Shown here: one piece after another, positions 1 to 48,225 of the stretch
Layout: each line of letters opens with the position of its first letter
How positions within the stretch are numbered: the first letter of the stretch is position 1
Assembly: GCA_015657535.1 (NCBI GenBank)
Contig: JADHZB010000125.1
Coordinates: 1-64,000, forward strand
Origin: Nephromyces sp. MM_2019
Lineage: Eukaryota; Apicomplexa; Aconoidasida; Nephromycida
Length of the DNA: 64,000 nucleotides
Direction of reading: 5' to 3'
The notes under the pieces: generated by a model
Databases searched by the model: none
What the model saw: the letters and a program-made list of their open reading frames with translations, nothing else
What the model was told of the DNA's origin: nothing
Position numbers and translations under genes: made by a program

Positions 1-146
1 TGTGTGTGTGTGTGTGCTAAATCTCTCTCTTCACTATGCAAGATTTCATCTTCTTCTACTGAAAAAGCTGCTGAAAGGTAGAGAAGAGGAAACAGCTAGT
101 TTCCCCTCTTCTTCAAGGCTTAGTTACTAGCTAAAATCTCATCCGC
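1..146. promoter_or_regulatory. 5' flank of the ATG101-like gene
   Basis: The window opens with a short (TG)n run, about 16 bp. It is followed by CT-rich sequence up to the first ATG of the ATG101-like gene at 147. No TATA box or other defined promoter element is evident. It probably holds the 5' UTR or proximal promoter, which is inferred only from position. Confidence 0.3.
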
Positions 147-2279
147 ATGAATAATTGTGCGGATTTCAACTGCCCAGAGCTTAGGCTGGGAATCAAGTTT
201 ATTAAGGATGCTTTAAGGTGTATTCTACACACAATCATCTTCTCTCGCTCTATAGGAGATGTGGGAGCTGTAGTGCCAATCAATGCCTGCTGTGAGCAGC
301 TTGATATTCACTACGTTAAAGTTAAAAATGATTTTATTGAATCAGAAGTTGAGGCGAAGATTCGGTGTTTCTTAGGTGGGTGGGGGGGTTGGAGGTGGGA
401 TAAGGGGGTGAATTTGGGTGTGTATGTCTGGGTGTGTGATGTGGTGTGGGTGTCTTTGGGTATCTTTGGGTGGGTTCGGATGTGTGTGTGTGTCTGGGTG
501 TGTCTTTGAGTGTGTGTGGGCGTGTACAGATCTGTGGGTGGGTTAGGGTGTGTGGAGATGTATGTGGGCATGTGTGGGTGTGTCCTGGTGCGTGCCTATG
601 TGTGTGTGTCTGGGTGTGTCCTGGTGCGTGCCTATGTGTGTGTGTGTGGGTGTGTCCTGGTGCGTGCCTATGTGGGCATGTGTGGGTGTGTGTGTGTGCG
701 TCCTGGTGCGTGCCTATGTGTGTGTGTGTGTGTGTGTCCTGGTGCGTGCCTATGTGTCCTGGTGCGTGCCTATGTGTGTGTGTGTGTGTGTCCTGGTGCG
801 TGCCTATGTGTTCTGGTGCGTGCCTATGTGTCCTGGTGCGTGCCTATGTGTGTGTGTGTGTGTGTGTGTCCTGGTGCGTGCCTATGTGTTCTGGTGCGTG
901 CCTATGTGTCCTGGTGCGTGCCTATGTGTCCTGGTGCGTGCCTATGTGTCCTGGTGCGTGCCTGTGTGTGTGTGTGTATATATATATGTGTTAAATTTTT
1001 GTTTTGGTGTGTATTGGCATGTGTAGCTCTGTGTGTTACTGAATGTGATTTTTTGCATTTAAAGGTGGGTAATGGAGGTTTTTGTGGAATTTCGGGTGAC
1101 GATGTTGTGGTGTTTTTGGTGTGCCAGTGATGTGGGTGGTGAGATGTGCTGAGAGTGTGGGGTTTTTTTGTGTTTATCAGTGTCTTATGTTAGCTAAATT
1201 GAAGCGTTGGGGTATGAGTATAACTTTTTCATGTAATAAAAGCTGATAGAGAAGCGTCTGGTGTGTCTTATCACAAAAGCATCTCACCTTCATGCTTTGC
1301 ACTACGAGAAGTATGATACGTCTGTTTCTTAGTTAAAAAAAGTGTGTAGTTAGTGTTTTCCAGAATGTGTGTGTGTGTAGCTGCGTTTAACGATTGGAAA
1401 CACTTAATTCGATGCCTTGAAGCATTTCTGTGTTGTTACTATACTTGGTAATACTGGGGTTGAGGAATTCAATCCAGAGAATCTTCTTTTATACCTTCAA
1501 TGTGCCTTATTTTAGATGTTTTTTGAGGAAATAGTAAAGTGCAAAAAGAGTCATTTTGCTTCCTCTTTTTACTTTTTTTCTGCTCTTTTTACTACTTCTT
1601 CTTGTTCTTCCTTTCATTTTTTTTTCTTTTTTTCATATTTTCTGGCCTCATCTTCATTTTGTTTCCCCTCGGCTTCTCCCTCTCCATCACACTCTCTTTC
1701 TTTTCTTTTTGCTCTTTTTCATCTCCCTCTCCATCTGCCCCCCCTCCCACTCATTGCTTCGATTCCCCCCTCTCCCCCCCCAGAAATGCTAGCTCGTGGA
1801 GTGACTGATCGAGCTCAAATTTCTCTCTCTTTCTACGAATCTCGGCCTGAAAGATCTCTGTTAGGTCTTTTCTCCCGGAAAGAAACCGAAGAGAAGATCT
1901 ACTTTGAAGCATGGCATCTTCCAGTCTTCTCAATGGATGGCTGCTGTGCTGTTATGAATCAGAATAGTGTTAAAAAGCCTCTTCTTCCCAACATCTATCC
2001 GCTTGGAGGAGAAAAAACAGCGAAAAATCATTTTCTTCAAGCGAACAAAGCTCGTCTTTCTGCATCAGTGAAGAATAGCTTCTTCGCTGCTCTTTACTAC
2101 CCTCTTCGTGGTGAGTCATGGTTTGGGTCTTGCTTAGAGGCGGGGAGGAGATGTTGGAGCTGAATAATAGGTGTATGTGTATTTGTTGGTGCTGTGTGTA
2201 TATTCGTGTGTGTACCTGTGTTGTGGAGCTTGGAGATGAGTGTGTGTGTGGTTGGTGGTGGAGGTTGAGTGTGGAGATT

Positions 2280-2317
<38 letters not shown>

Positions 2318-5300
2318 TGGTGTAGGAGGAGGTGCTAGAGTTTCGAGCTGAGTGTACGTTTGTGTGATTGTGTAGACGCTATATTTTGTGAATTTGCGCT
2401 TGTGTGTGAGGTGAAGATGCATGGAGAAGGAGCCGCTATACTATTGCCTTTATCTATTGGTGGCCAACTCAGCAATAAGCTTCCTTTCCTTTAGTACCAA
2501 TTTTTTTACTTTTTCTCCTCTTTCAAAGATTGAAGATGGAGGAGACGTTAAGAAGCTGTAAAACATCAAATCGGCTCTTCTTATCATGAGAATTAAATCG
2601 CTTCAGTCTGAAGCGGCTCCGCATTCATCTCTTCATAAGAATCTTCACGGTGTTAATACCAAGTTTGTTGCAGTCCAAAACAGCTTGAGTATTAATGAAG
2701 GTTATGCAAGACGGGAGCAAACTACTTAGAAACTCCATATGCCACTTTCACACACCTCCAACCCCCTCCCGCTTCCCACTCATCAAACTCAACTCTCACT
2801 CTACCCCTATGTGCTACCACCAATCCTACCAACCCCAACGCTACTACTCCCCAGAACACTACCCCCCTCACTAAGACTTTCACAAAAATATCTCGCCTCC
2901 TCCCCCTTCTTCATAACTAACACACACAACCAGACCACCCTCCTTTCTCTCTCTAGGAAAAAGCTCCACTGCCTCTCCAGTCAACACTCTTACTCGTATT
3001 CCAGCTACCTCCAGCGTAGGATCTTCGCAGTTTCAGAAGGAATTATGGGAGGAACACGCATACATAGCATCCGATGAAGGTTGCTCTGCTGCTGATATAC
3101 ACACACCTTATAGCCCAGACATCACTGCTTCTACCACAATCACCGCTGCTAACCTTGGAAAGGCAGGTGATTATAGAGCCTCAAGCCCCTCCTTCCGCCA
3201 CGATGAGCTCAAGCAGTCTAGCTATTGCTGCTCTCTGAGTCCTCTAGACTACTCTGAAGAGCTTTTAAGCTCTAGCGCCAATCGAAGTGGTGTGTTGCTT
3301 AACAGGAGTAATACTGGCTTTAATCATAGCAATAGCAGCGATTTCATTGACGTTTTAGTCTCTACACTTCCTCATGTAGTTTTCCCGCTAGCTAGGCAAG
3401 CTCTTGCGTTTAGAAATAGCATAAATTCAATGATTGAAGGCTATTATTACCCAAGATCTTCAGTGGGAAATCTCAGTCATTCATGCTATTTTCCCGACTA
3501 TTATCATCATCACCACCATCATCATCGTCGTCATCAACTTCATTACCCTCATGGGAGCTCGCAAAGGTCTTCTAGGAGAAGATCAAATCTTTCTGGGTTT
3601 AATCAACCTCACGCCACCACACACACACACACGCATAACTCTAAAAGAGATTTCTGCAATGCTTCAGAGGCTGAAGATTTAGACCAAACGCTGCAGCTGC
3701 TCCTGTCTTTGCAAATTGCGAAGAAAAATAGAGAGTTACTGCCCTCATCGCTGCCTTTACACAGACCTCCCATGCAGCTAAGAAAGCGAGTTTTTGAGGG
3801 AAGCTGCAACCGTTTTGGTGGAGAATGTGGCTATACAGTAGCTTATCCTCAGGAATCTCTATATGAAGAAAAATGTGAGTTTATGCAGTCAGAAACGACG
3901 GAGGTGGAAACTAACGGAGATTTTAGCTTGAAAACTGATGGATTAATGAGAGCTGAACATCACAGTATAGAGATTTCATCGTGTTTTTGTGGTGAAGAGC
4001 CGAAAGATTTGTCGCTGGAAGGAGCGTTACCCTATGAAACCACGAAGACGGAAGGAGCAAAGACTGATAGCCTTGCTATGATTTGCTTAGAAGGAAGAAA
4101 TTCAGCGAAATCCGCCTTTTTTCCACCAAAAAATGAAGTATCTAGTAGAGAAATGAGCATATTATCGCACAAAGATTCAGAGATTGACTGTTTTTCTGAT
4201 AAAAGTGGCGAAGAAGATGTGAAATATGAAGCTGATTGGAGGAATAGGATGGGGAGGGGGGGGGTTTGTGACAGTTGCAGCGTTAGCAGTGGTGGGAGTT
4301 GTAGGAATAGTAGCAACGCTATCAGCAACACCGCTTCCACCACCAACCCCTCTGCTACCTACGCTGCCTCCACCAACCCCTCGACCACCTCCACCGCCAC
4401 TGACCCCTCCACAACCACCACCTATGCCACTACCTACGCCACTACCTACGCCACTACCACCACTACCCCATCCACAATCACCCCCCCCTTTACCACCGAC
4501 ATATATAGTAAACAGCAGAGGCGCCCGCACTCCGATTCCAACTGTATAGATATCTTATATCAAAATACTATTGATTTACAGGGCTTTCCAGCTACCGATT
4601 TGCTCTTTCCAGAAGACGAAGAGGAAGTATCAAACTTCACCAAAGAGCTTGATCCACCCAAGCGATTGCCAGTTGATAATGTCACTAGCTTTGATGGCTT
4701 TATAGATATAAACTCGCTAGTTGGGATAGAAGGTGGCTTTGCTGCTCATGATTTGGAAGCTCTCTACCCTGAAGGCTTTGTTTTGGTTGAGGATAAGCCT
4801 TCAGAAGCCCCATGCAGCACTGAAGAAATCCCTAGTAGTAATCTCGGTGAAGAGGCTTTGATGCTAGAAACAGGGGTTACTGATGATGATTCTCTTGGAG
4901 AAGATATCTCTAGGCAAAGCCTAGCGATTTCTGCTTCTCAAGCATCTTCATGGCAAGAACCAGCTCATCATACACTCCCTCCAGACACTAGTTTTTATTT
5001 TCTAGTTTCTCGGCTAGTTTTTATGAAGGAAAACGCTTTTCCACACGATTTAACTGCGAAAATGTCGGTTTTACCAACACAAACAGGTGGTGGTGGCAAC
5101 CGAAGGCATACGAAGCGTTGCTACAGTCCGTCTTCATCACGTAACGAACCCGTCTCGCGAGTTTTTGGTTCCCCGTTTTTGCTTGTTGAAGATCGAGTAA
5201 ATAGGAATCACTTGAGTTTGAAGTTTGAAGGGGAAAACACCACCATGGGGCTGGAAATGAAGAGCTCAGGAAATGCTGGAGGCTCATTTACGTCGCAATG

Positions 5301-6438
5301 TGTGTTGAATAAACCTCTTTTGCTTGAAGATATCTCTGCAGTCCCACGCTGTAATGCTGCTTTATCGCTTTTAGATGAGGAAAATTCACCATCTTTTTCC
5401 CGCTTTAATTCCAGGTCAAATGTGAGTTTTTCTTTGTCATCTTCAGCTGGTTTTTCTTGTGAATCTTTGAATGCTAGCAGGGGACTAGCTAGTTTGAAGT
5501 CTTCAAGTCCTGAAGCTTTTCAAAGTTTGAAGAATGAGGAGGGAGTAGGTAGGGATGAAACGGCTTCGTTGCTTTCGCTGTGCAGGTCACGGAAAGAGGG
5601 GGACAGATCTTCCTTGTTATCTCTAGGGGAAGCCCCCACTCCAACTGAAGGCTGTTCTTCTCTGAAAGAAGCTAGCTTTTCTTTAGCTGCTGCTCGAGCT
5701 GAAAATCATTCCCTTCTCCAACAGGCGAGCTGTTCTTTCTTTTACCCTGGCAGCCTTGAAGACGCCAGCCACATAGAATGCACAGGAGGAGATGATTGGA
5801 GTGGTGGAATCGACTCAAACCCCTCCTCAAATTATCACGCAACACACGAAATTTTGCCGACTTTTTTCTCTCGGAAATGGCCTCAAAGCCGCCCTTTTTT
5901 AAAGGAAGAAGTTATTCGCGGTAGTGCGTGCTACTCAGCACCAGGAAGTAACACACGAGAGGAAGAAGCGAGTGCTTTTTCTGGTGATAAAGCTTATAAA
6001 AACGTGATTTCACCTCAAACTATGAGCGCTGCTGGTACAAGAGCGAGTGAAGCTGAAGATGAGAAAATTTGTGCGTTATCTGCTGCTCGGAAGGTTAAGG
6101 CTACATCATCATCTCTAGGCTCCACACTACCCACCGTTTTTTGGAAAGAAGGCTCTTTTTGCTCATCTTCAGCTGATACGGAGTTGCTTTTATCCAAGAA
6201 AGATCAGTTTTTTACAGATGGATGTACTGATGTTTGCTATGAAAGAAGAGGAGGAGAAGGGCTAGGCGAAGGAAGTTATCTTGAAGATTTCTCGAGCACC
6301 GTGACGAAGGAGGTATTGCTCCGAAAAGAAGCTGATATTCATATTAGAACTAGCTTACTTTATATCTTGGAGAAGCTTAATGAGATGCAAGACCACCTTC
6401 CACCTCCTTCTTGCAATGGAAGTTTGATGCATAGGTGA
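147..6438 (+). CDS. ATG101: ATG101-like autophagy protein with a giant insertion
   Basis: Likely ATG101, the HORMA-fold partner of ATG13 in the ATG1/ULK autophagy-initiation complex. Four exons join in phase: 147-375, 1784-2110, 2614-2700 and 2957-6438, about 1,374 residues with a stop at 6436-6438. The usual family length is about 220. Exon 1 encodes a near-canonical N-terminus, with IKDALRCILHTIIFSRS around residues 18-34 and then LDIHYVKVKNDFIESEVEAKI. Exon 2 continues with AQISLSFYE (about 87-95) and KIYFEAW (about 114-120), the conserved ATG101 strands. The last codons of exon 4 encode LLYILEKLNEMQDHLPPPS, matching the family's late helix and its DHxPP motif. Between these ends lie about 1,200 Ser/Glu/Thr-rich residues with no recognised domain. 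The Trp of the 'WF finger' seems absent: GLFS stands there, near 104-107. Exon 3 (29 codons) is the least certain. A GTGAGA donor at 6435 suggests that a further 3' exon may replace this stop. Confidence 0.75.
577..970 (+). repeat. 20-bp GT-rich minisatellite with TG microsatellite
   Basis: I count fourteen copies of a core CTGGTGCGTGCCT. Where tandem, the period is 20 bp, and (TG)n runs of variable length separate some copies. Two copies carry TTCTGG instead of TCCTGG. The array lies within intron 1 of the ATG101-like gene. Because 20 is not a multiple of 3 and the unit lacks stops in any frame, all three forward frames stay open through it. The resulting Cys/Val-rich reading frames are a by-product, not genes. 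Confidence 0.9.
1541..1783 (+). repeat. About 240-bp polypyrimidine tract at the intron 1 acceptor
   Basis: An almost uninterrupted C/T tract ends in CCCCCCCAG, immediately before exon 2 of the ATG101-like gene. It is far longer than a normal splice-acceptor pyrimidine tract. Its translation is Phe/Ser/Leu/Pro low complexity and is not considered coding. Confidence 0.7.
2111..2956 (+). other. Introns around the small third exon of ATG101-like gene
   Basis: GTGAGT opens the first intron at 2111, which includes a (TG)n run at about 2280-2310. An in-phase 29-codon exon can be placed at 2614-2700, with donor GTTATG. The second intron ends in CTCTCTCTAG at 2956. The stretch at 2740-2956 is C-rich with a Pro/Tyr-biased open frame. 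I read it as intron, but a retained version cannot be excluded. Confidence 0.5.
2957..6330 (+). other. Low-complexity insertion inside the ATG101 fold
   Basis: This part of the fourth exon carries no recognisable ATG101 sequence. It is Ser/Glu/Thr/Ala-rich and has a poly-His run encoded at about 3506-3530. A Thr/Pro/Tyr repeat (YATTYATT pattern) is encoded at about 4320-4500, over a CCACTACCTACG-type DNA repeat. Many SSS and SxxE patches look like phosphorylation substrates. No catalytic motif or transmembrane segment is seen. It separates the FEAW strand from the DHLPPP helix, so the HORMA fold would have to tolerate it as a loop, or it must be processed. Confidence 0.7.
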
Positions 6439-7171
6439 GAAGTGGGGAGGATAATTTTTGGGTTTTTTTGCTATTTTTACGGTGTTTTTGCTGTGTTTTT
6501 TACTGGTTTTTTGAGCAGCGATTAGTTTTAGTAGGGAGTGTGTTGGGATGTGCGTGAGCATCAGGTGAACATGGAGTAGTCGGTTGCTTTTCATTTTTTG
6601 TGTAGTTGAAGGCAGTTACGGGACTGCAGGCTTAAGGGTGTTTTGCGTATCTTTTGTTTGAAGAGAAACGGTTTTTTGGGAGGATTTTGCGGAATTTTTA
6701 AACTAATGTGAGCGAAGGTATGTATGGGTATGTTCGCGTTGTTCTCTAGAGATATATATATATAGAGATATATAGATGCATACAATTATATGCATCTATA
6801 GATATGTATTACTGGAAGCAGTAGATTAGGATAAAGCACCAAAGAGTTGCCTCTTTCCAAAGCTTTTTGATGGAAGTTTTCTGCTTTTTTTGCCTCCTAA
6901 AAAATCTAAATGAGTACTGCATTCCGATATTTTAACTTTATTCATTCCTTTAAGCTTCTTCTTAAATCTCTCCACGGTAGAAGTACACACACACACGCTC
7001 TAAGCTTTCTTTTTCATTCTTTTTGCTTAATTTTTCTCTATATCATTCGGTCCCATATGGTGCGTATGGTAGTTTACTATCTCGGCTCTCGCCAGGTTGA
7101 ACTTTTGCGTGCGTATAGATTCCACTTTTCTCAAAGAGAAAACAACTTTAAGCTTCTATAATGATACTTTT
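6439..7171 (+). other. 3' region of ATG101-like gene with candidate last exon
   Basis: If the GTGAGA at 6435 is a donor (phase 2), a last exon could follow. One candidate starts after CTCTCGCCAG at 7096 and gives LNFCVRIDS, spaced from HLPPPS like the final ATG101 strand. It then runs open to a TGA at 7250-7252, antisense to the end of the neighbouring gene. An alternative starts near 6909 with FRYFNF and ends at 7161. I cannot choose between these and the simple stop at 6436-6438. Nothing else is seen here apart from a small inverted repeat at 6771-6800. Confidence 0.35.
6771..6800. repeat. AT-rich inverted repeat (12-bp arms)
   Basis: The arms tatagatgcata and tatgcatctata are perfect reverse complements across a 6-bp spacer, caatta. 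A (TA)n/GATATA microsatellite sits next to it. It lies downstream of the ATG101 stop and could be a hairpin in the 3' UTR or simply AT-rich microsatellite sequence. Confidence 0.6.
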
Positions 7172-10100
7172 TCATATTTTTTTCCACTTTTCGCTTTTCC
7201 TCTTGATTTTTTTGATTATTCCAGTCGCTTTTTCTTCTGCCGATTTCTGTGAGGCGAATCTTTCTCTTTGAATTTTTCGCTTTCTAATTTTTTCGCTATT
7301 CCATTGGGATAATAGCCTTTTTAGCTCTTTTATTGAGTTGTTTTTCTGCCATTTTTCTCTATCATCACGCCATTTTTCAAAAGCTTTCATCACTCTTGTC
7401 TCTTTTTCTACTAAAGACTGCAGTTATACTTCATGTTTTCTCTAGTGCTGAAAAGGCACCTTTAAGAATTAAAGTGTTATATTCATGTCATCTCAAAAAT
7501 TGTGAAAATGTACTTTTTTCGTTTCTAGTGGGATTCAGTATTGCTTCTATTTTATCCTCAAACTGCAACAAGTTGTGTGTGCAAAAACGGCCATGAAATG
7601 ATTCTCTTTTTTCCAGGTTTGAGATTTCTTTCGAGGGGATTGGAGGTAATGCTGATTGGTTTCCTCCTTCCCTATTGAACTCTACAATGAGAAATTTCTG
7701 GTACCTAACATAAATCCCCTTCTTCTCGCTCATATTTTTCTCGCTTAAGAGCTTATCTTATCTAGAGAAGTGGTCGAATATCACCATTGAGATTAAAAAT
7801 TATACTTTCTCAAAAAAAAAGCAGTTTATATAAATCTTTCGGTTATTTATTTCCTATGTAACAAGAAATATATAAGAAGCATTTATATAATAATATTCTT
7901 TTTTTCCTCTGCTGATCAGCTGTTTTCAAAAAATATAGAAGAATTGGTAGAGTTAAAGTCAACATCAAATTACCCGGAATTGTTTGTTCTTTGAATATTA
8001 GCGAGATTTGTATAGGATTTTTTTTGCGATTTTATGCCTAAAATAAATGCTTTCCGCTATGAAAAATTTTTTGGAGAAAAAAATGCGATTTCTTTGGAAG
8101 GATCAGAGTGTTGAGGAAATATGAAATGTTTGAAGAAGTCGATACCATTGATAAAAAGGAAAATTTGCTTGAAAAAATTTGCTTGGAAATTTGCTAATTT
8201 GGGAGTACCTCGAGTTTCCAAGTTTGCTGCTAATTTTTTTGATGCTCTCGGGCGGGCGCTTTTTCAAGGACTCGACTGAGGGCAAAATGTTTTATATTAA
8301 AGAATTATGAAAATACTTTCTAAGTTAAACTTGCCAACTGTCACTCTGCTATGCGGTTGCATACCGAAGCATAATTTTCTGTTTGTTGGGCGAGCTCTTC
8401 TTCTAGTCTTTCGATGGAGAAAAGGGGCTGTCTATATATTTTGATTCATACGACTAGGCAAATCGTCGGGAAAAGCTGTCTTTTCTCCAAGTTTTACGCT
8501 TTATGCATCACACTTTTGCGTTTAGTTTCGATAAAAAAATATAGGAAAGCTTTGCCTTGCTGCCGCAGTCTATATGGGTTTATATAGCGGGAGAAGAAAG
8601 CATTGTATTTTTTTCTCAGCTAAAAAGGCATGATATTTTTCTTTTCTGTACCATGTGAAATGCTTTTGCTAACGGGGTATTTTTTATTCGCGCCCTTGGA
8701 AACCGATTTTTGATTCTTTATCCTTTTTAAGCCCCGTCATATATTCTGTTGCTAGTCAGATTGAGAGCTTTTGTAGGCGCATTTTGCAAAACCGCTTGAA
8801 AATATACCCGCGATACCGATATGCGCCGTTTTTTCGTGAGCTACAGTTTTATATTTCTATAATTTTGTAACGTATAACAGCATGCATTAGAATATTTTCG
8901 AAATGGTCACTGTGACTCCGTGGTACCTAGAGTAATATGCGAAGGTTCAGTAAATTTTCACTTCAATCTTGTTATTAAGGTTGCAGAGCAATAGTTTGTG
9001 CTTATTTTTGTGCTGAGCAAGATAGCAAGTGTTTAGGAGCTGAAATTGGGGGTTGGATGCGATAGTGTTACTTACCTGCCCCCCAAATGTGGAGTTTTTG
9101 CAAGGGAAATGGGTAAAATATGGGCCCAGAGGAGGATGTGACATTTACTCTGTAATTGGAAGAGTCACGCGCCATTTTAGGTGTTTCTAAGGATTTATTG
9201 GGCTCTTGAACAAAGTGGATTAAAAAGAGTTCTTCCAGTGACGGCCGGTAGTGCAATTTTTCGTTTTGAGATAGGTTGCGAAGAAGGAAACTTTGAGAGA
9301 TTATTCTCTAACGCTCTTTAGCTATGGTAATGCTTCGTAAATTTCATGCTGATGTTTAATATGAGAGGGAATTTTCCAGCGCTACTTATGCGCCTAATTT
9401 CTACTGTAATTGGGTGCTGCCACTGCTATTCAGCTTTTCACAAGTTCGTTCATTCTTTTGCTCTATTTTTTGGGTATTACGCTATATACCCGGAAAGATA
9501 TTTCACTCAAAGTTGCTATGGAGATAAGTACCTTATCGAACGGTTTCAACTGCTTGTTGCGATGGGTTGTATAGAAGTTTGCGTAGCTGAATGGGAGGAT
9601 AATTCGCAACGAGTTTCTAGCCTCGCACATGAGATAAAAAAATAACACTTTGATTATTACAGTCACGAACAAAAATTTGAAATCTATTTTGATGAAATCA
9701 AGCAAATTATGTATCCCAGATTTTTGGGAATTAAAGCACTCTGTTAGCAGCACCAAAGAGAGCCGTGGAACCAGAACGAAACATAGCAATTACGACAAAT
9801 AGAGTGTAATATTGTCAATGCTGCATTCATTCCTGTTATTGGCAACCACTGAGATTGAAAAATCAGCAGCTCATATTAAAATGCTGCGGATTCCAACCAC
9901 AAGTAGTTATTTTTAGCGTTGGCTTCAGGAGGTAGTTTTATCCTTAAACAAAGAATTGCAAATTTTTTTTGTTTGCTTCTAAGATGGTTGATATACAACA
10001 AATAGGGTACCCTAAAAAAAATGGATCAATTTTCCAATGCTTCTTATGTAGCTACAAGTCTTGGCAAACAAATTGAATCTACTAATGCTGCAAAAATATT

Positions 10101-14800: not shown

Positions 14801-17800
14801 AAAAAACCCCAAAAAAAACCCCAAAAAAATTTCTTTCTAACCACTAAATCCACCTAAAAAGGCTTTCCCCAGAGCTTCAATTCCGTAAACAAACCCCTCC
14901 CCAATTCCTTTTGGTTTCATTCTAATGGAATAATCCTTTTGCTCCTGAATATATCCCTCGTCGAGTGTCAGTACACCAAGGCTTAGCGACGCAGCTCCCG
15001 CCATTTTAGATATTCCCCCAAAAAAGCCATATCCAGCACCTCTAATAAAAGAGTCAGTTCCTCGGGCAAAACCGCTAAAAAAGTCCAGTCCTACGTAGCT
15101 GGCATATAACGATTCTATGGCTATATCTCTAATACCCGCTAAAAGATGCTCAAAAGATCTTAGTGGAGTTCCAAATATTTCAATGTTTCCTATAAATGTA
15201 GGCAATTGGGCCTCTGCCTCGGCTATGTAAGCCTTTCGCATTGCGCTCATTATGTTTTCTAAGTTTTCCGTTTTATCTTTTATCATAAAAGCGGAAAAAA
15301 AAATTGGAGCCTCATCGATAGCAGACAGAGGAAGAAAAGACCTTTCTAGGAAATTTCTTTCTACTTCTCTATGAGCTGATGTATTGTAACTAAACGATAT
15401 TTTCACTATGGTGGGATGAATGTGCATGTTTGATATAAAAATTTTTTCTGTAAATACTCGTTTCGACTTTTGAGGCTTAATATCTGGTATCTTTATTTTT
15501 TCGCCTGTATTAGGGGTAGGAGATTGTATTGAGCTTTTCATAATATCCACGCAAAGTTCTGTAAGGTTTTCAATAAATTCTATGTCAACCTTTAGTGACA
15601 TGGCCTGTATTAAAGTGAAAAAGAGCAACTTTTTTTTTAAAAGTAGAGTAATAACTGAGGTTGAGCAAAAAATCTTTTTTTCTGCTCTTTTTTCTGTTTT
15701 GATATAGCAGTTATGAAAATAACATCATCACGAAATAAAAATTCATTTTTGCTAAAACAGCAGATTATATGCTTGTAGTTGGATTTACCAGCCAATTGGT
15801 GGCAAGCAAAATTTTCAAAATTCGGCAGCGCTTAAAAAATTTTGCGTAGGATCATTAAGTTAGATTCTTTCTAATTTTATATAAACTCGCAAATTATTTA
15901 TGAAAAAAGCCATGAAAGTTGCATTTGAACCTGCTGCATAAAAATTTGATTGCTAATGTTATATTTTTCCTGATTTTGTATGTAAAAATTGAAACTTTCT
16001 TGACAGAGCACTAAAGGGGGAAGAATATTAGGAAATTTCCACTTTAGGGTGGGGAAATATGTATCTGTAATGAGAGCAAGCCAAATTTTTAAAAATAAAA
16101 ATTTTTATTGCTAAGCTTTAGTTGCACTGACCATGACAATTAATCTGCAGTTTTCAACAAAAAAGTTTCCTTCTATTGTGCGTCTCCCTTTGAAGATAAA
16201 ATCTATAAAAGGAGAATTTTCATAGTCAATCTTCACTTCGGTGCCTCCCTAAAAATTGATAAATTCAGTTTTTTTTTGCATATTTGGCATATTTTTAATC
16301 CAAGTTTAAGAAAAATTCATTTGAAAAATATGCAACGCAAAAATGAATAATAACACTCTGAGCTTTGAAATTTTTCAAAGTAAAAACACCGATTTTTGCC
16401 ATTGGAATATTATAATAAATTAAAAGAGAAAATTCTTTAAAAAATTGCTTTCTTAAAAGGCTTTAATCTCATCATTGATAAGCGCACGCAATTAGCTTTA
16501 TTTGGCTTTATCACGGAGCTTCCTTAAACTTAAAAAAAGTAAATATTCCCTTTTCTTCAACCCAAAAAAATAAGTGCCATGAATATTCAAAGAGAAAAAA
16601 GGATTATTTTCCGTTTGTACTTTATCTTCTATATTTTATGAAAAAATAATGAGAAACTTATTGGAAATGATATTGCCATTATTCAAGAATTAGAAACTAC
16701 CAAATACCATTTGATTTTAGTTTTATTGAAAAACCAGAAAGAACTAATATATACCAAAGAACTATCTTATTATTAAGGCATGCTTCAATAAAAAAAGCTT
16801 TCATATTAAAAGTCTTGCTTTAGCATATGGAATCGCTGCCTGATTTTTCATCAAATATCTTAGCATAGCTATTATTGCATAAAAATTATGTAAAGCTGGG
16901 ATTTTAAAGATATGCAATATTTTACCAAATACTTAAAAGCATTGGAATGGTAGGTACCAGCATGACTATTTTTTAGCGCTGACCATGATTGATATTCTCA
17001 ATGTAACAAGCATTTTAAAATACTTATTTGCTCCAACGAAAATAATAGTTTTCTCAATTTAACTACTTTTCGTAGACTCTGCTATAACATTTTCATAGTT
17101 TCCAAATAGTTTCTGCGTTATTAAAATACCGCCTATTAAAAATATAGCATTCTCCCTCCATGTTTTTTCCGACAATCTTACGGTCAAATGAAGGTATTCC
17201 TGCTGAGCAATTGATGGACTATGAGGAAATGTTAATCGTTGAAGAAGTACTGGATAAACAGCGTCATGTCTCTGATTATCAATCTGAATGTCATTAATGG
17301 TGCATGCGATAGTTTCTTCTTCTAATGATCTTGCATAAAGAAATTTTAGTCGGTCTACAGAAATAACTGCAAATTCTGAGGGTACTTTTTCAACCTCATC
17401 ACTAAAGGGATTCTTTTGAATAATAGAGGTTATTACAGACACTAAGATATTTCCAAAAAAGCAACGAATTTCAAAATTAGGTAGCATTTCCGTTGGATGC
17501 TTAGTAATCACGCTATTTTCTTGCTTTGTCGGAGACTTTGAATTATCTTCTTCAATGCCAGTAATATTTTTTTCACTATGGTGAACTTCAGCCAAATGTT
17601 TTTCGGTTAAAGTTTGAACTTGATCTTGGCTGCCTGAATCTAATTCAGAAATACTTTGATTTCTTTTATACTGAGGGTTCAAGTTGTGATTTGAAAAAAA
17701 CTTTTTTCCCTGCGTTTCGTTTTCTGATAAGGCCTCCAAAGTCCATAAATAATTTTCGTTGCTTTTGCTTCGCGAACTAATAAAATGCGGGGAATTTTTT

Positions 17801-44800: not shown

Positions 44801-47800
44801 ATCTAAGCAATAATTTTTTTTAGGCTTTAAAAAATAATTGAATTTAAATCACTTTCCTAAACATAATGCTTATTAAGACGAAAATGAAATACCACGGCTG
44901 AAGGCATGAGTATCTGATATTAGCAAAAAAAAATAATTTTTTGGCGCAAGAAAATAAAGTCATAAAATTATTGCGTTTAAATATTATTTACATACACAAA
45001 TATACCCTCGATCGCACTTTAAAAATTATATAACTTCTATTGCTGATCTTAGTCTGTATCTACCTAATAGGAGTTCACTAATTGAGAAGATATTGATGTA
45101 GTGATTTCTTTAATATTCTTTTTAAAGTTTTTTTCTAAATAGTGGATAGATCGTAGAACGCTAGATTCTGCTTCTTCTAGATTTGCTGTTTGCTTACAAA
45201 AATTAGACGCTTCAAATTTATATTGATTTTGTAATTTACAAATAAGAATTCTCATCCGCATTCTCACCCCTTAAACATCTGAAACTCTGCAATACTCTTA
45301 CAAATTAGATTATCACAAATTGAAATTTTTTTTAAAGAATGCACTCAAACTGAAGGCGAACTCCACCCTTTAAGCAATAATTTTAACATAAAATCAAGCC
45401 TCAAGCGTACTTAAGAACCAGCAGACTGAAATATCACTGCAAACCTGATTTTTTTCATGAGAAGAAATAGTTAGAGGCCCAAAATGACCGGGAAAATCAA
45501 GCCTCAATCGACGTCGAACACATCCGATAGCGTATTCCCACCAAACTCTAGGGTTTTCAAGTGGTGAACAGCTTGGGCGAAAAGGAAAATATATGTCATA
45601 ACGCATAGCAACGCTATTAAAGCCCTCCTTGTAATCTTGCAGGACTTTGCTAAGATGCAAGCACTCCCTGAAAAATTATAAAAAGTATATCATCAGCTTG
45701 GAAACCTATTGAATGTAGCAGTTATAAGCAGCTAGGCGAGGTAAAACCCTAGCATACATTTACTGGACTTTTTCATTTTTTTTTCGTATAGCATTGGCCA
45801 AGCTTGTTCTAGCTAACGGCTTAAATACAAGCATCTAATGGTTATGGTATTTTCATCTAGTAAAATTGCCTTGTAAACATGCATCGCTAAAGCATAATAA
45901 AGAACTCTCCTGGTGGCTGCATTAGCTACGTATTCAAATAAGGTTCAATTCGTCAGGATGGAGTTCAGATAGTTTTAATCCAAACAAGACTCTCCATAAA
46001 ACTCCCAAAACTAAAGATAAACTAATTTAGAACAAGAATGGCAAGAAGTGCTCCACAATTTTTCAAACTCTGACGCAGTGATTATCTAACGCTATTATAT
46101 CCTTCTTTAATAATCCTTAACGGAAGAGCTAGGTAGCTTCAAAAACCAACCTCATACCCTCTTACTCGGTCTGCAAGAGTAAACTCATTCTGCTACGTCA
46201 CTAGAATCAATAGAACTTTTTTTAATGACACAATTACTTGTTTAAAGATATATACACCTTGCATAAACTTGCATAAGAACCTGAAAAATCCAGGCATTAA
46301 ATTTGCGTTGATTTTAAACAGTTCCCCGCTCATGGAGTATAAAGGCACTTCTTTTCCCCTTTCTTTGCCATGTTGTTTGAGAAGAAAGGAACCAGATATG
46401 GGATAGAGGAGATAGGATAGTTCGTCCTGCTAAAGTAAAAAAAAATGCATTATGTAGACTTTGCTGCATAGCTGGTAATATTGGCAATTTAATAAGACTT
46501 TATTTATATGAATTCCATCTGTCTACCCTTTAGAGTAACTTTTTCAAAGTACATGGAGCTTCGCGTTGCTACTCTGTTTACCTCCTGTGCTATTTTCTCC
46601 ATAATAGCATGAATTTCCTTCTCTGGTTTCATTTTGTGATGCGTAAATATTAACGACCGATCATTAGAGTTCCAGTAAATAGCTAGCTTTTTAACTTCCA
46701 GTATCCTCGTGCCCTCTATGCACTCTTCAGTTTTTAATAAAGAACTTAAAGGTTTTTCCATCTCTGCAGTTATCAGACTCGAATGAAGCCTGCCACGCTT
46801 TTCCGAATCTTCAAGCTTAAAAACTTCAAGGCATATCTTTTCGGTAGCGCTTTGAAAAGAACTCTGTGGTATAGCATCAGAGGCTCTTGCTGAAAGCAAG
46901 GATATTTTTTATCCATTTTCTCGATTAAAAAATATTTCTATCTTATTTTACTGTTGAAAAACTATTTTTTCCACATTTAAGATCTACTTAAATTTGGGGA
47001 GATATATTGCTTATAGAATAATGGAGTACTTACCATTCTCGGATTCATTATCTGGGACTTGAAAAACCTGGTTATCATTTGAGTCAGCAGCACCTTGCAG
47101 TCCGCCATGGCCTGAGCTTTCCGAATATGTTTTACCGAATTGAAAATAGCATTCATCGTCACTAGGTGTACGTATTCTCAAACAAGACAAAGTGACTCCA
47201 AAGGAAAAAGGCCTCGGGCTCAACTGATTATCTTCAAACCTAATATGAATTGTCTTTACATTAACAAGAATATCACTCGCAATTCGTGATATCCACCTAC
47301 TCAGAAATGTAGCCTTGGACGCCTGCTGCTCAGAATCTGCCTGCTCCGCGAACAATTTCATGTCATATCGATCTAATGCACCTTGGCGCTCAAGAAACAC
47401 TCTCTCAATAAGCTGCTCCTCAGTCCAATCAGCTCCATGCTTAGGCCCAAATACAAGAAATAGCTTATCTAATTGTAATTTTAACCGCTCTTCTGAAATC
47501 CCAGCGAGTTCGCTGGCGTCCGCTTCATTCTTTTTCTCCTGTAATTGAGGCTCTCCAGGGTCATTTGAAAACTTAGTACCGGGAGCCACATTATTTGTTT
47601 TCCTGTGGCTTAAGCCTTGCCATAGCAACTTCCGATAAGGAAGCGAAATCTTAACTTCTCCGACCCAGCCATAAAGAAGTTCTAGAGGTAGGTTTAGAGC
47701 TTCAAACGCCTCACTGTTAACGGCGACATTAGTGAGGCTCACATTTAATGAATCGGAAGTTGAAATTGAAACCGAGTCTTTGTCAAGGCCTTTTAAGTAT

Positions 47801-47868
47801 TTTCCAACATAATCATGCGTTATGCTCACTATCAACTCCCTAATCCTATTTACTGGATAGAAATACAT
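10880..47868 (-). CDS. VPS13: Giant VPS13-family lipid-transfer protein (30 exons)
   Basis: VPS13-family bridge-like lipid transporter acting at organelle contact sites. Exons 5'-3': 47868-47034, 46889-46540, 46429-46281, 45667-45438, 45269-45079, 44637-44473, 43519-43316, 42586-42442, 41514-41034, 39543-39384, 38858-38290, 38076-37071, 36587-36383, 35833-35330, 34597-34214, 31981-31632, 31231-30967, 30771-28075, 27887-27618, 27216-26396, 25793-25671, 24696-24207, 23133-22833, 21829-21277, 20286-19516, 18501-17182, 15628-14842, 13218-13073, 11871-11729, 11240-10880. All phases agree, giving 4,991 residues; many family members have about 3,100-4,300. Landmarks in order: chorein N-terminus (DYVGKYLKGLD), WWEYAI, GWRSWIVWG, IHPTIV, QIDNQ, GFFKGTGRGLMGAV, RLPR, PH-like end. 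Least certain: the start codon, exon 4-6 borders, the exon 24 end and the exon 26-27 junction. An upstream exon may extend the N-terminus. Introns are AT-rich, the longest about 2.2 kb. Confidence 0.88.
13073..15628 (-). other. VPS13: VPS13 C-terminal domain exons 27-28 (ATG2_C-like)
   Basis: Exon 27 (15628-14842) encodes KIFISNMHIHPTIVKISFSY, then DEAPIFFSAF, FIGNIEIFGTPLRSFEHLLAG and the Gly-rich FFGGISKMAGAASLSLGVLTLDE. Exon 28 (13218-13073) continues in phase with YDPIKGVQSEGVEGFFKGTG and ends HKTSEGIQ. This matches the C-terminal amphipathic-helix (ATG2_C-like) region shared by VPS13 and ATG2 proteins. The intron between them begins at 14841 with GTTAGA and contains a (G4T8) repeat on the sense strand. 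Confidence 0.9.
14783..14829 (-). repeat. (GGGGTTTTTTTT) repeat, potential G-quadruplex
   Basis: On the plus strand four CCCC blocks at 14783-14786, 14795-14798, 14807-14810 and 14819-14822 are each followed by about eight A. The minus strand, which is the VPS13 sense strand, therefore has four G4 runs spaced by T8 with a 12-bp period. Four G4 tracts are enough for an intramolecular quadruplex. The array sits only about 20 bp inside the intron downstream of exon 27. Confidence 0.85.
16132..16248 (-). other. Candidate 39-codon cassette exon of VPS13
   Basis: Between exons 26 and 27 a minus-strand segment starts after a good acceptor (ATCAATTTTTAG). It stays open for exactly 39 codons (GGTEVKIDYENSPFIDFIFK...) and ends ATG|GTCAGT. 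Both borders are phase 0, like the flanking exons, so it could be included or skipped without changing the frame. It matches nothing I recognise in VPS13. The codon content looks protein-like rather than intronic. Confidence 0.4.
17182..27887 (-). other. VPS13: VPS13 adaptor-binding (VAB/SHR-BD) region, exons 19-26
   Basis: These eight exons encode the repeated beta-rich region that in VPS13 binds organelle adaptors. Recognisable repeats include FHPFAIRNETGHDI (exon 20), GGTFLVCHVHSEGGHKILT (exon 22), LHTPFWLVSYPHADW (exon 24) and SSRYYLVNEGNINLLVRQ with LQRGCTVPFYWGD (exon 25). Exon 26 has NDIQIDNQRHDAVYPVLL, the highly conserved QIDNQ element just before the C-terminal domain. Exon 26 either ends at a strong GTAAGA donor (after 17182, LHLT) or reads on to a stop at 17059. 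Exon 24 likewise has two possible in-phase donors, at 21277 and 21298. Confidence 0.82.
26341..26383. repeat. Long hairpin just inside VPS13 intron 20
   Basis: Two 20-bp arms with a single mismatch are separated by 3 bp. The left arm begins attcagcagttcatc and the right arm ends gataaactgctgaat. On the sense (minus) strand it begins about 12 nt downstream of the exon 20 donor (exon ends at 26396, intron GTAAAG). Confidence 0.85.
28075..30771 (-). other. VPS13: VPS13 exon 18: 899-residue middle segment
   Basis: This is the largest exon. It starts with EIYQGTERHAKKED after TATATCAG and ends before GTAATT. Only parts resemble VPS13: RVIFSVQAIKKLYEFFF (chorein-repeat-like helix), IAIDLQLNEAIIVFPED, VELLCEDGWLLKNCLIWQ and, near the end, FFNPVAVAFEPIIENF, the conserved 'YN..l..WEPliE' element. 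The intervening Ser/Glu/Lys-rich stretches are probably disordered loops inserted between beta-strands of the groove. No internal stop or frameshift is seen over 2.7 kb. Confidence 0.85.
31982..34213 (-). other. Longest VPS13 intron (intron 15, about 2.2 kb)
   Basis: Exon 15 ends at 34214 with a GTAAGC donor and exon 16 begins at 31981, with phases matching directly. The intron is AT-rich with homopolymer runs. Short open frames inside it, for example around 32669-32896 and 33456-33680, lack convincing splice contexts or VPS13 similarity. I see no gene within it. Confidence 0.55.
35330..41514 (-). other. VPS13: VPS13 middle repeat exons 9-14
   Basis: Six exons with VPS13 groove signatures. 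Exon 9 has LNLIFREVSLTVE. Exon 10 has AAPTLVFPVSSLEIFGD followed by LVLNLGELL ('P..i.Pe...vLDLG'). Exon 11 has LGEMSEFCVTLYPSTYRALL. Exon 13 has DVRFERPIKVIFSPLILREL. Exon 14 has VSFGSIEFIYLQEKFLRLLK, typical of the 'v..iGt+rivfl.rfl' repeat. Long Ser/Asn-rich loops sit in exons 11 and 12. Junction codons are all in phase, for example CG plus A between exons 9 and 10. Confidence 0.85.
38930..39025 (-). repeat. GAA/GAT-rich acidic-coding tract in VPS13 intron 10
   Basis: On the VPS13 sense strand this part of intron 10 is almost pure GAA/GAT/GGT triplets and would encode DEDEDE-type residues. A TAA closes that frame. After it, the same frame stays open for about 30 codons straight through the exon 11 acceptor (TTGTGTTTTCAG at 38859). 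It may be a purine-rich splicing enhancer or a degraded exon extension. Confidence 0.6.
45079..47868 (-). other. VPS13: VPS13 N-terminal chorein exons 1-5
   Basis: Exon 1 encodes the chorein domain: DYVGKYLKGLDKDSVSIS, NLPLELLYGWVGEVKISLPY, then VKTIHIRFEDNQLSPRPFSF. It ends at a GTAAGT donor after 47034. Exon 2 (acceptor CTTTCAG) gives ILEVKKLAIYWNSNDRS. Exon 3 gives ELSYLLYPISGSFLLKQ and is too short to stand out as an open frame. Exon 4 contains FRPSCSP and VWWEYAIGCVRRR, the family's 'RP...WW.YA' motif. This end of VPS13 typically faces the ER. The chosen ATG (47868) puts the conserved Gly of the YVGKY motif about 7 residues later than usual. An acceptor at 47846 would place a splice junction exactly where the family normally starts. 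Confidence 0.88.
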
Positions 47869-48225
47869 TTCTGAGCGAAACGTATGCAAATTTCTATTCA
47901 AAGCCTCTCGTCAAGTTATGATAGAGCTCGCAAACTTTTTTCATCATCTAAATTCTGCGCAATAAGATAGAGCTTTCTTTAAGCGCTAATTTGGTGCCTA
48001 CGATACCTATCATGGGCTTTCTCCAGCAATCAAAATGGGCGGATCAACCCCTCAAAAATCCTTGCTCATCAAGTAAAAGAAAGGTTGAAAACTTTTCTAC
48101 ACTACTTGCGCCCACAGAATGGGTAAGAAGTAGCAGGTATTATAGTTCATGTATTCTTTATGTGTATAATTTATCCATTGTTATAGCGTTTTAAGAGTAG
48201 CGGAAGGTGTAATTTCACTTAGTAC

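Follow-up and report, generated by a model that had tools for sequence, protein, structure and literature searches.

A complete four-exon ATG101 gene at the end of a Nephromyces contig

We analyzed a window of 64,000 nucleotides from the apicomplexan Nephromyces sp. MM_2019 (assembly GCA_015657535.1, contig JADHZB010000125.1, positions 1 to 64,000), which begins at the very end of its contig in an assembly of 48.3 Mb and 1,127 contigs. Close to this end lies a real and complete gene for the autophagy-initiation factor ATG101, with four exons on the + strand. Its spliced model encodes 1,376 residues, in which an insert of 1,176 residues (126-1301, encoded by 1930-2110 and 2957-6303) interrupts the HORMA fold between the PVF strand and the last helix.

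Exon 1 (147..375) encodes ATG101 residues 1-76 (MNNCADF...EVEAKIRCFL), and its start aligns with the start of three compact relatives, P0001-P0003 (219-235 residues; 3 of 95 candidates). Intron 1 (376..1783) has the donor TAG/GTGGGT, an acceptor with 15/15 pyrimidines, and stops in three frames. Exon 2 (1784..2110) encodes residues 77-185, comprising the core as far as PVF (ending at residue 125) followed by the first 60 insert residues (126-185, at 1930..2110), which have no counterpart in the relatives and were therefore excluded from the alignment. Intron 2 (2111..2956; donor GTG/GTGAGT, acceptor with 15/15 pyrimidines, stops in three frames) falls within the insert-coding region. Exon 3 (2957..6434; 3,478 nt) encodes residues 186-1344 and most of codon 1345. 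Nearly all of it is insert, the second segment of which (2957..6303) runs to residue 1301, and the 3' end of the exon (6304..6434) matches the profile of the last ATG101 core helix (TKEVLLRKEADIHIRTSLLYILEKLNEMQDHLPPP...). Intron 3 (6435..7616) has the donor TAG/GTGAGA, an acceptor with 13/15 pyrimidines, and 19 stops per frame. Exon 4 (7617..7713) completes codon 1345, encodes residues 1346-1376, and ends in a TAA stop; it supplies the last strand of ATG101 together with the tail (RFEISFE...MRNFWYLT), and the C-termini of the relatives align to this part. Splice phases are consistent at all three introns (1, 1, 2).

The original prediction, made from the sequence alone, had ended the gene at 6438. 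That in-frame stop falls within intron 3, beyond the donor at 6434/6435, and exon 4 with its C-terminal strand had been overlooked. The open frame of more than 3 kb that it described is present at 2917-6438 but is not continuous from 147, as introns 376-1783 and 2111-2956 intervene. Its proposed insertion of roughly 1,200 residues in the HORMA fold held up as a large in-frame insert with coding signal through most of its length, with the size corrected to 1,176 residues.

The core is that of ATG101

The full 1,376-residue model matched the Pfam ATG101 family (PF07855) with an E-value of 9.6e-22 and 77.9 bits, compared to a curated cut-off of 26.5 bits. With the insert removed, the match improved to 9.6e-25 and 87.7 bits over profile positions 5-153 of 158, which bears out the earlier view that both the N-terminal region and the helix LLYILEKLNEMQDHLPPP resemble ATG101; the Pfam profile stops short of the part encoded by exon 4. 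Across the assembly, exon 1 gave the sole Pfam ATG101 match (one of two candidates scored). The compact relatives P0001-P0003 each exceed the Pfam cut-off and are 32-33% identical to the Nephromyces protein over 99-100% of its compact form.

A profile was then built from P0001-P0003 and human ATG101, without the window sequence, and run on the 2,833 open reading frames (ORFs) of at least 15 residues in the window. The four exons took the first four ranks: exon 1 (profile 1-80, E 5.4e-17), exon 2 (profile 90-130, E 0.012), the end of exon 3 (profile 153-176, E 0.062), and exon 4 (profile 180-217, E 1.7, with the next ORF at 2.7). These matches are collinear with the profile and in genome order, so that all parts of the HORMA core are present in sequence, the C-terminal strand included. 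A helix-only profile placed the end of exon 3 at rank 1 of 2,833 (E 3.4e-4), while a tail-only profile placed exon 4 at rank 2 when made from the three relatives and at rank 1 when human was added. Because the E-value of exon 4 is weak, its support comes from rank, order, phase, and acceptor, and this evidence is not fully independent, since P0001-P0003 were found using a query that contained exon 4. The I, S, F, R, and T columns of exon 4 are invariant across the window protein, P0001-P0003, and human ATG101.

We also examined the predicted fold of the compact P0001, a model of low confidence (predicted local distance difference test, pLDDT, 50.3). Its 14 best PDB matches were all ATG101-ATG13 crystal entries, with template modeling (TM) scores of 0.35-0.48. 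In sequence, the Nephromyces protein resembles ATG101 of human and fission yeast (PDB 5c50, 5xuy, 4yk8) in its start, ordered HORMA core, last helix, and C-terminal strand.

Contamination from the tunicate host was considered as a source of the gene and rejected: the core is only 25% identical to human ATG101, which we judge too low for a tunicate protein given the identity expected between tunicate and human ATG101.

Exon 3 carries coding signal

The open frame at 2917-6438 comprises 1,173 codons and is the longest in the window. No frame in a sample of five other contigs, with 184 kb of read sequence, is as long (the next longest has 1,066 codons); edges and unread bases can shorten frames in this sample. 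Under a simple model with the base order of exon 3, the probability of 1,126 open codons is ~10^-27, and under the base order of the three introns or the window it ranges from 10^-20 to 10^-32.

Codon usage was scored with a weak model; its training set consisted of 34 other ORFs, after 3 of an initial 37 had been dropped for low complexity. The exon 3 frame scored positive in 10 of 11 subdivisions and was the best of six frames in 8 of them, with a mean of 0.126 bits per codon compared to 0.078 in the training set. Exon 2 scored 0.08, and the introns and the stretch after the gene were negative in all frames.

Among the six longest open frames sampled on the other contigs, three match Pfam families and three do not, two of the latter being Ser-rich (17.4% and 19.7%); the two Ser-rich frames without a Pfam family have 1,066 and 614 codons. 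Two other HORMA loci in the assembly, which we take to be Hop1-like, span only 695 and 873 bp. Long Ser-rich frames therefore occur elsewhere in this assembly, and the other HORMA domains found here are compact.

The insert occupies a loop of variable length and may be disordered

In the alignment, the length of the relatives also varies at the loop that carries the insert. In the low-confidence model of P0001, this loop follows a strand (116-126) and precedes a long helix (137-170). P0001-P0003 vary in length here but are without a large insertion.

No second copy of the insert was found in its own assembly by protein or DNA search, apart from the gene itself; the insert DNA otherwise matched a CAT-type repeat twice, over 54 and 41 nt. 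An origin of the insert by duplication or from a repeat was rejected for want of a second copy in the assembly. Searches of the insert against Pfam and NCBIfam (whose models are prokaryotic) returned no family above cut-off. A match to the Pfam EFR3 family (E 0.28-0.29) was under its cut-off, and the best match of exon 3 among PDB sequences had an E-value of 0.075. Internal protein repeats were likewise rejected: the best self-matches fell in a Thr-rich low-complexity stretch, and the top one (score 77, above the 44-65 maxima of 12 block shuffles) was that stretch aligned against itself.

In composition the insert is 15.0% Ser, 7.1% Thr, and 4.8% Asn. On the TOP-IDP scale it is more disorder-prone than the core (0.136 compared to 0.046), but its charge-hydropathy value of 0.043 (core, 0.195; negative values indicate disorder) lies near the border, so disorder is plausible rather than demonstrated. 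Kinase-type motifs occurred at the level seen in shuffled sequences, with 13 SP/TP motifs compared to 13.9, 11 RxxS/T compared to 12.8, and 34 S/TxxE/D compared to 32.2, leaving a phospho-regulatory role unproven. The earlier description of a disordered, possibly phosphorylated regulatory insert is not supported in that form.

Six hydrophobic-then-acidic clusters lie at 4603-5910 (residues 735-1170): LLFPEDEE, FVLVED, FLLVED, LLLED, LLDEE, and FLKEE. The corresponding hydrophobic-hydrophobic-acidic motif gave 10 regular-expression matches at 6 places, with 1.7 expected by shuffling and 3.2 under a Markov control, in which 11 of 2000 sequences reached 10. As this motif was picked by eye after looking at the sequence and its matches overlap, these counts should be interpreted with caution.

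A probable expansion of ATG101 at one loop

The analysis shows the gene structure, its splice phases, the coding signal, and the insertion point. We consider it probable that this is a complete apicomplexan ATG101 gene, the only one found in the assembly, which has grown by ~1,176 codons at a single loop between the PVF strand and the last HORMA helix. The insert would be translated and may project from the fold as a long arm rich in Ser and Thr. The HORMA core would still be able to fold and pair, as relatives already show length variation at the loop that holds the insertion. The most probable origin would be a tendency of the lineage to acquire long insertions in its loops, and the insert would probably act as a flexible tether or docking arm attached to the autophagy-initiation complex, any specific binding function being only putative.

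Several observations weigh against this reading. A search for long ATG101 relatives (757-2,408 residues) returned none among 581 candidates at E <= 10, and so no second species with the insert, although no related nephromycid genome was within reach of this search. Exon 1 had a codon score of about zero (-0.01) under the weak model, and the exon 3 frame was not the best of six in 3 of 11 subdivisions. In the WF-finger region, the alignment, as read by eye, shows Gly in the column where the relatives have Trp, with the Phe kept. The WF finger is a functional rather than a family-defining motif, and P0001-P0003, which retain the W but not the F, nevertheless pass the Pfam cut-off. Finally, judging from acceptor-like sequences within exon 3, shorter in-frame splice forms are possible.

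Acceptor-like sites raise a small possibility of shorter splice forms

Acceptor-like sites were defined as AG dinucleotides preceded by at least 12 pyrimidines in 15 positions, with the frame-keeping phase set by the exon 2 donor. Exon 3 contains 10 such sites in the frame-keeping phase, compared to 1 and 2 in the other phases. All are on the + strand, nine of them at 2980, 3247, 4612, 4984, 5005, 5374, 5446, 5626, and 6172, and they are candidate alternative 3' sites. These sites raise the possibility that the exon 2 donor at 2110 joins several in-frame exon 3 acceptors to produce graded inserts, down to ~103 residues when 6172 is used. Codon shuffling predicts 2.65 frame-keeping sites, with 0 of 300 shuffles reaching 10, while synonymous resampling predicts 4.3, with 11 of 2000 reaching 10. 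The excess was also seen under two further synonymous settings (12/2000 and 7/2000) and, when codons were shuffled, for most of the tract lengths and thresholds used.

Other results argue against graded splicing. The acceptor measure was picked after the sites had been seen, and the excess weakens once the settings are strictest, where 129 of 400 (16 of 20 pyrimidines) and 400 of 400 (17 of 20) block shuffles reach the observed count. A weaker surplus in this phase also occurs across the 34 other ORFs when the first setting is used (31 sites compared to 21.1 and 23.1 expected), but it is missing at two other settings (25 compared to 23.9, and 141 compared to 136.6). The scarcity of sites in one other phase is general in this genome (102 compared to 127.6). 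The acceptors of the gene model itself are also as strong or stronger (15, 15, and 13 of 15 pyrimidines). We therefore regard graded splicing of the insert as unlikely. Less likely again is the extended proposal that this lineage makes a series of ATG101 isoforms, in which in-frame exon 3 acceptors would set the insert length and so adjust how far a docking arm of the autophagy-initiation complex can reach; if true, isoform tuning would have arisen in a group whose initiation complex is thought to be mostly lost.

A related possibility is that the insert-coding region is normally removed, leaving a compact mature protein and an open frame that is a by-product. Site 6172, the last strong one among the acceptor-like sites that keep frame, has 13/15 pyrimidines, and the three relatives found are compact, both of which are compatible with removal. 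However, an open frame of 1,160 codons that carries coding signal would have no reason to persist if it were always removed, the 15/15 acceptor at 2956 would be useless, and 60 insert residues lie in exon 2, upstream of the donor. The insert is also unlikely to be a simple unspliced intron, the escape route that the original prediction had left open, because intron 2, with strong ends at 2110 and 2956, sits inside the insert-coding region. Constitutive removal thus seems very improbable.

Neither a replaced partner nor a false join accounts well for the insert

Alternatively, the insert could fill in for an absent partner, for example by doing what the disordered ATG13 tail does in ATG8 docking and kinase binding. 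In line with this idea, the insert contains three matches to the xLIR pattern used here (SDFIDV at residue 313, DGFIDI at 765, and EGFVLV at 791), and no Pfam match to ATG13, ATG9, ATG11, or Atg1-MIT was found in the assembly. According to one review, homologs of ATG13 and ATG17 have not been found in parasitic protists (PMC8161075). The xLIR matches are nonetheless not above chance (3 compared to 1.24 expected, with 243 of 2000 shuffles reaching 3). The family negatives are uninformative, as control genomes also gave no match above cut-off and the assembly may be incomplete, and they therefore say nothing about the absence of ATG13, ATG9, ATG11, or Atg1-MIT. We give the replacement of a partner only a slight chance.

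Other features of the assembly bear on its purity and origin. Two clearly different Hop1-like HORMA loci (on contigs C212 and C1051) could be paralogues or reflect a mixed sample. Uricase matches were found on three contigs, tightly grouped on C548 and extending over greater distances on C1090 and C1018, which hints at a mixed or duplicated assembly; two prokaryote controls also matched uricase. A published table lists uricase as absent in its columns for Toxoplasma, Plasmodium, and Cryptosporidium, and the same paper reports the enzyme from Nephromyces, Cardiosporidium, and chromerids (PMC6320678). The five sampled contigs fell into two groups by guanine-cytosine (GC) content, at 31% (C494 and C467) and 40-41% (C1044, C876, and C754); over read bases, GC content was 35.5% for the window and 38.7% for the sampled contigs. 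The assembly may be mixed. Twenty matches to the alveolin family, which also matched one bacterial control, and a single AMA1-like match (E 8.4e-5) that covers 71 of 470 positions were present. Along with the uricase matches, these agree with a nephromycid apicomplexan as the likely source.

An assembly chimera or a false join of two genes in a mixed-sample assembly, which the Hop1-like loci, the three uricase contigs, the two GC groups, and the position of the window at the extreme end of its contig might suggest, is scarcely credible here. Phase is maintained across all four exons, an intron interrupts the insert-coding region, and the exon that holds most of the insert ends in ATG101 sequence, a combination that a random join would not produce. 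In its codon usage, exon 3 also agrees with the model from other ORFs.

Other features of the window

Intron 1 contains a 20-nt tandem repeat, GTCCTGGTGCGTGCCTATGT, in ~14 copies at 700-969, within a TG-rich stretch at 579-977. A comparable TG-rich stretch occurs on another contig, one bearing an alveolin match. A search of positions 1-9000 against Rfam at gathering scores returned no match.

Downstream, a large VPS13-type gene appears to be present on the - strand at about 14837-47910, convergent to ATG101. Its VPS13_N match at 47011-47910 had an E-value of 4.5e-22 and, at 78.1 bits, was below the cut-off of 80. Its C-terminal end is presumably near 14837-15724, where we placed it by sequence features.

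Comparison with known ATG101 proteins and significance

Known ATG101 proteins have ~220 residues and consist of the HORMA domain only, a compact size that is usual for the family but does not define it. The Nephromyces protein differs in having 1,376 residues, with 1,176 of them inserted before the last helix, and in having Gly in place of the WF-finger-region Trp. A search of the literature by title and abstract, with limited coverage of subscription papers, found no long insertion in ATG101. What is new here is a complete apicomplexan ATG101 with a 1,176-residue loop; the ATG101 protein itself is known.

Insertions in Plasmodium WD-repeat proteins, as described in PMC4456382, lie mainly in loops and leave the modeled fold intact. 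Unlike the insertions covered there, the Nephromyces insert is 5.9 times the length of its core, Ser-rich, and low in Asn.

Accounts of ATG101 in this phylum differ. For many protists, a review rates conservation of the ATG1 initiation complex as extremely poor (PMC8161075). In Plasmodium, an ATG101 orthologue appears to be present according to one source (PMC3962217), whereas no ATG101 seems conserved according to another (PMC3416769), and the proteins of the Toxoplasma initiation complex are described as yet to be discovered (PMC11588310).

The change in size is striking, and the insertion illustrates how much a single HORMA loop may carry. It also suggests that searches filtered by length or limited to single exons could miss such genes. 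A complete apicomplexan ATG101 would support the presence of remnant initiation machinery in the phylum and offers a query for its remaining parts.

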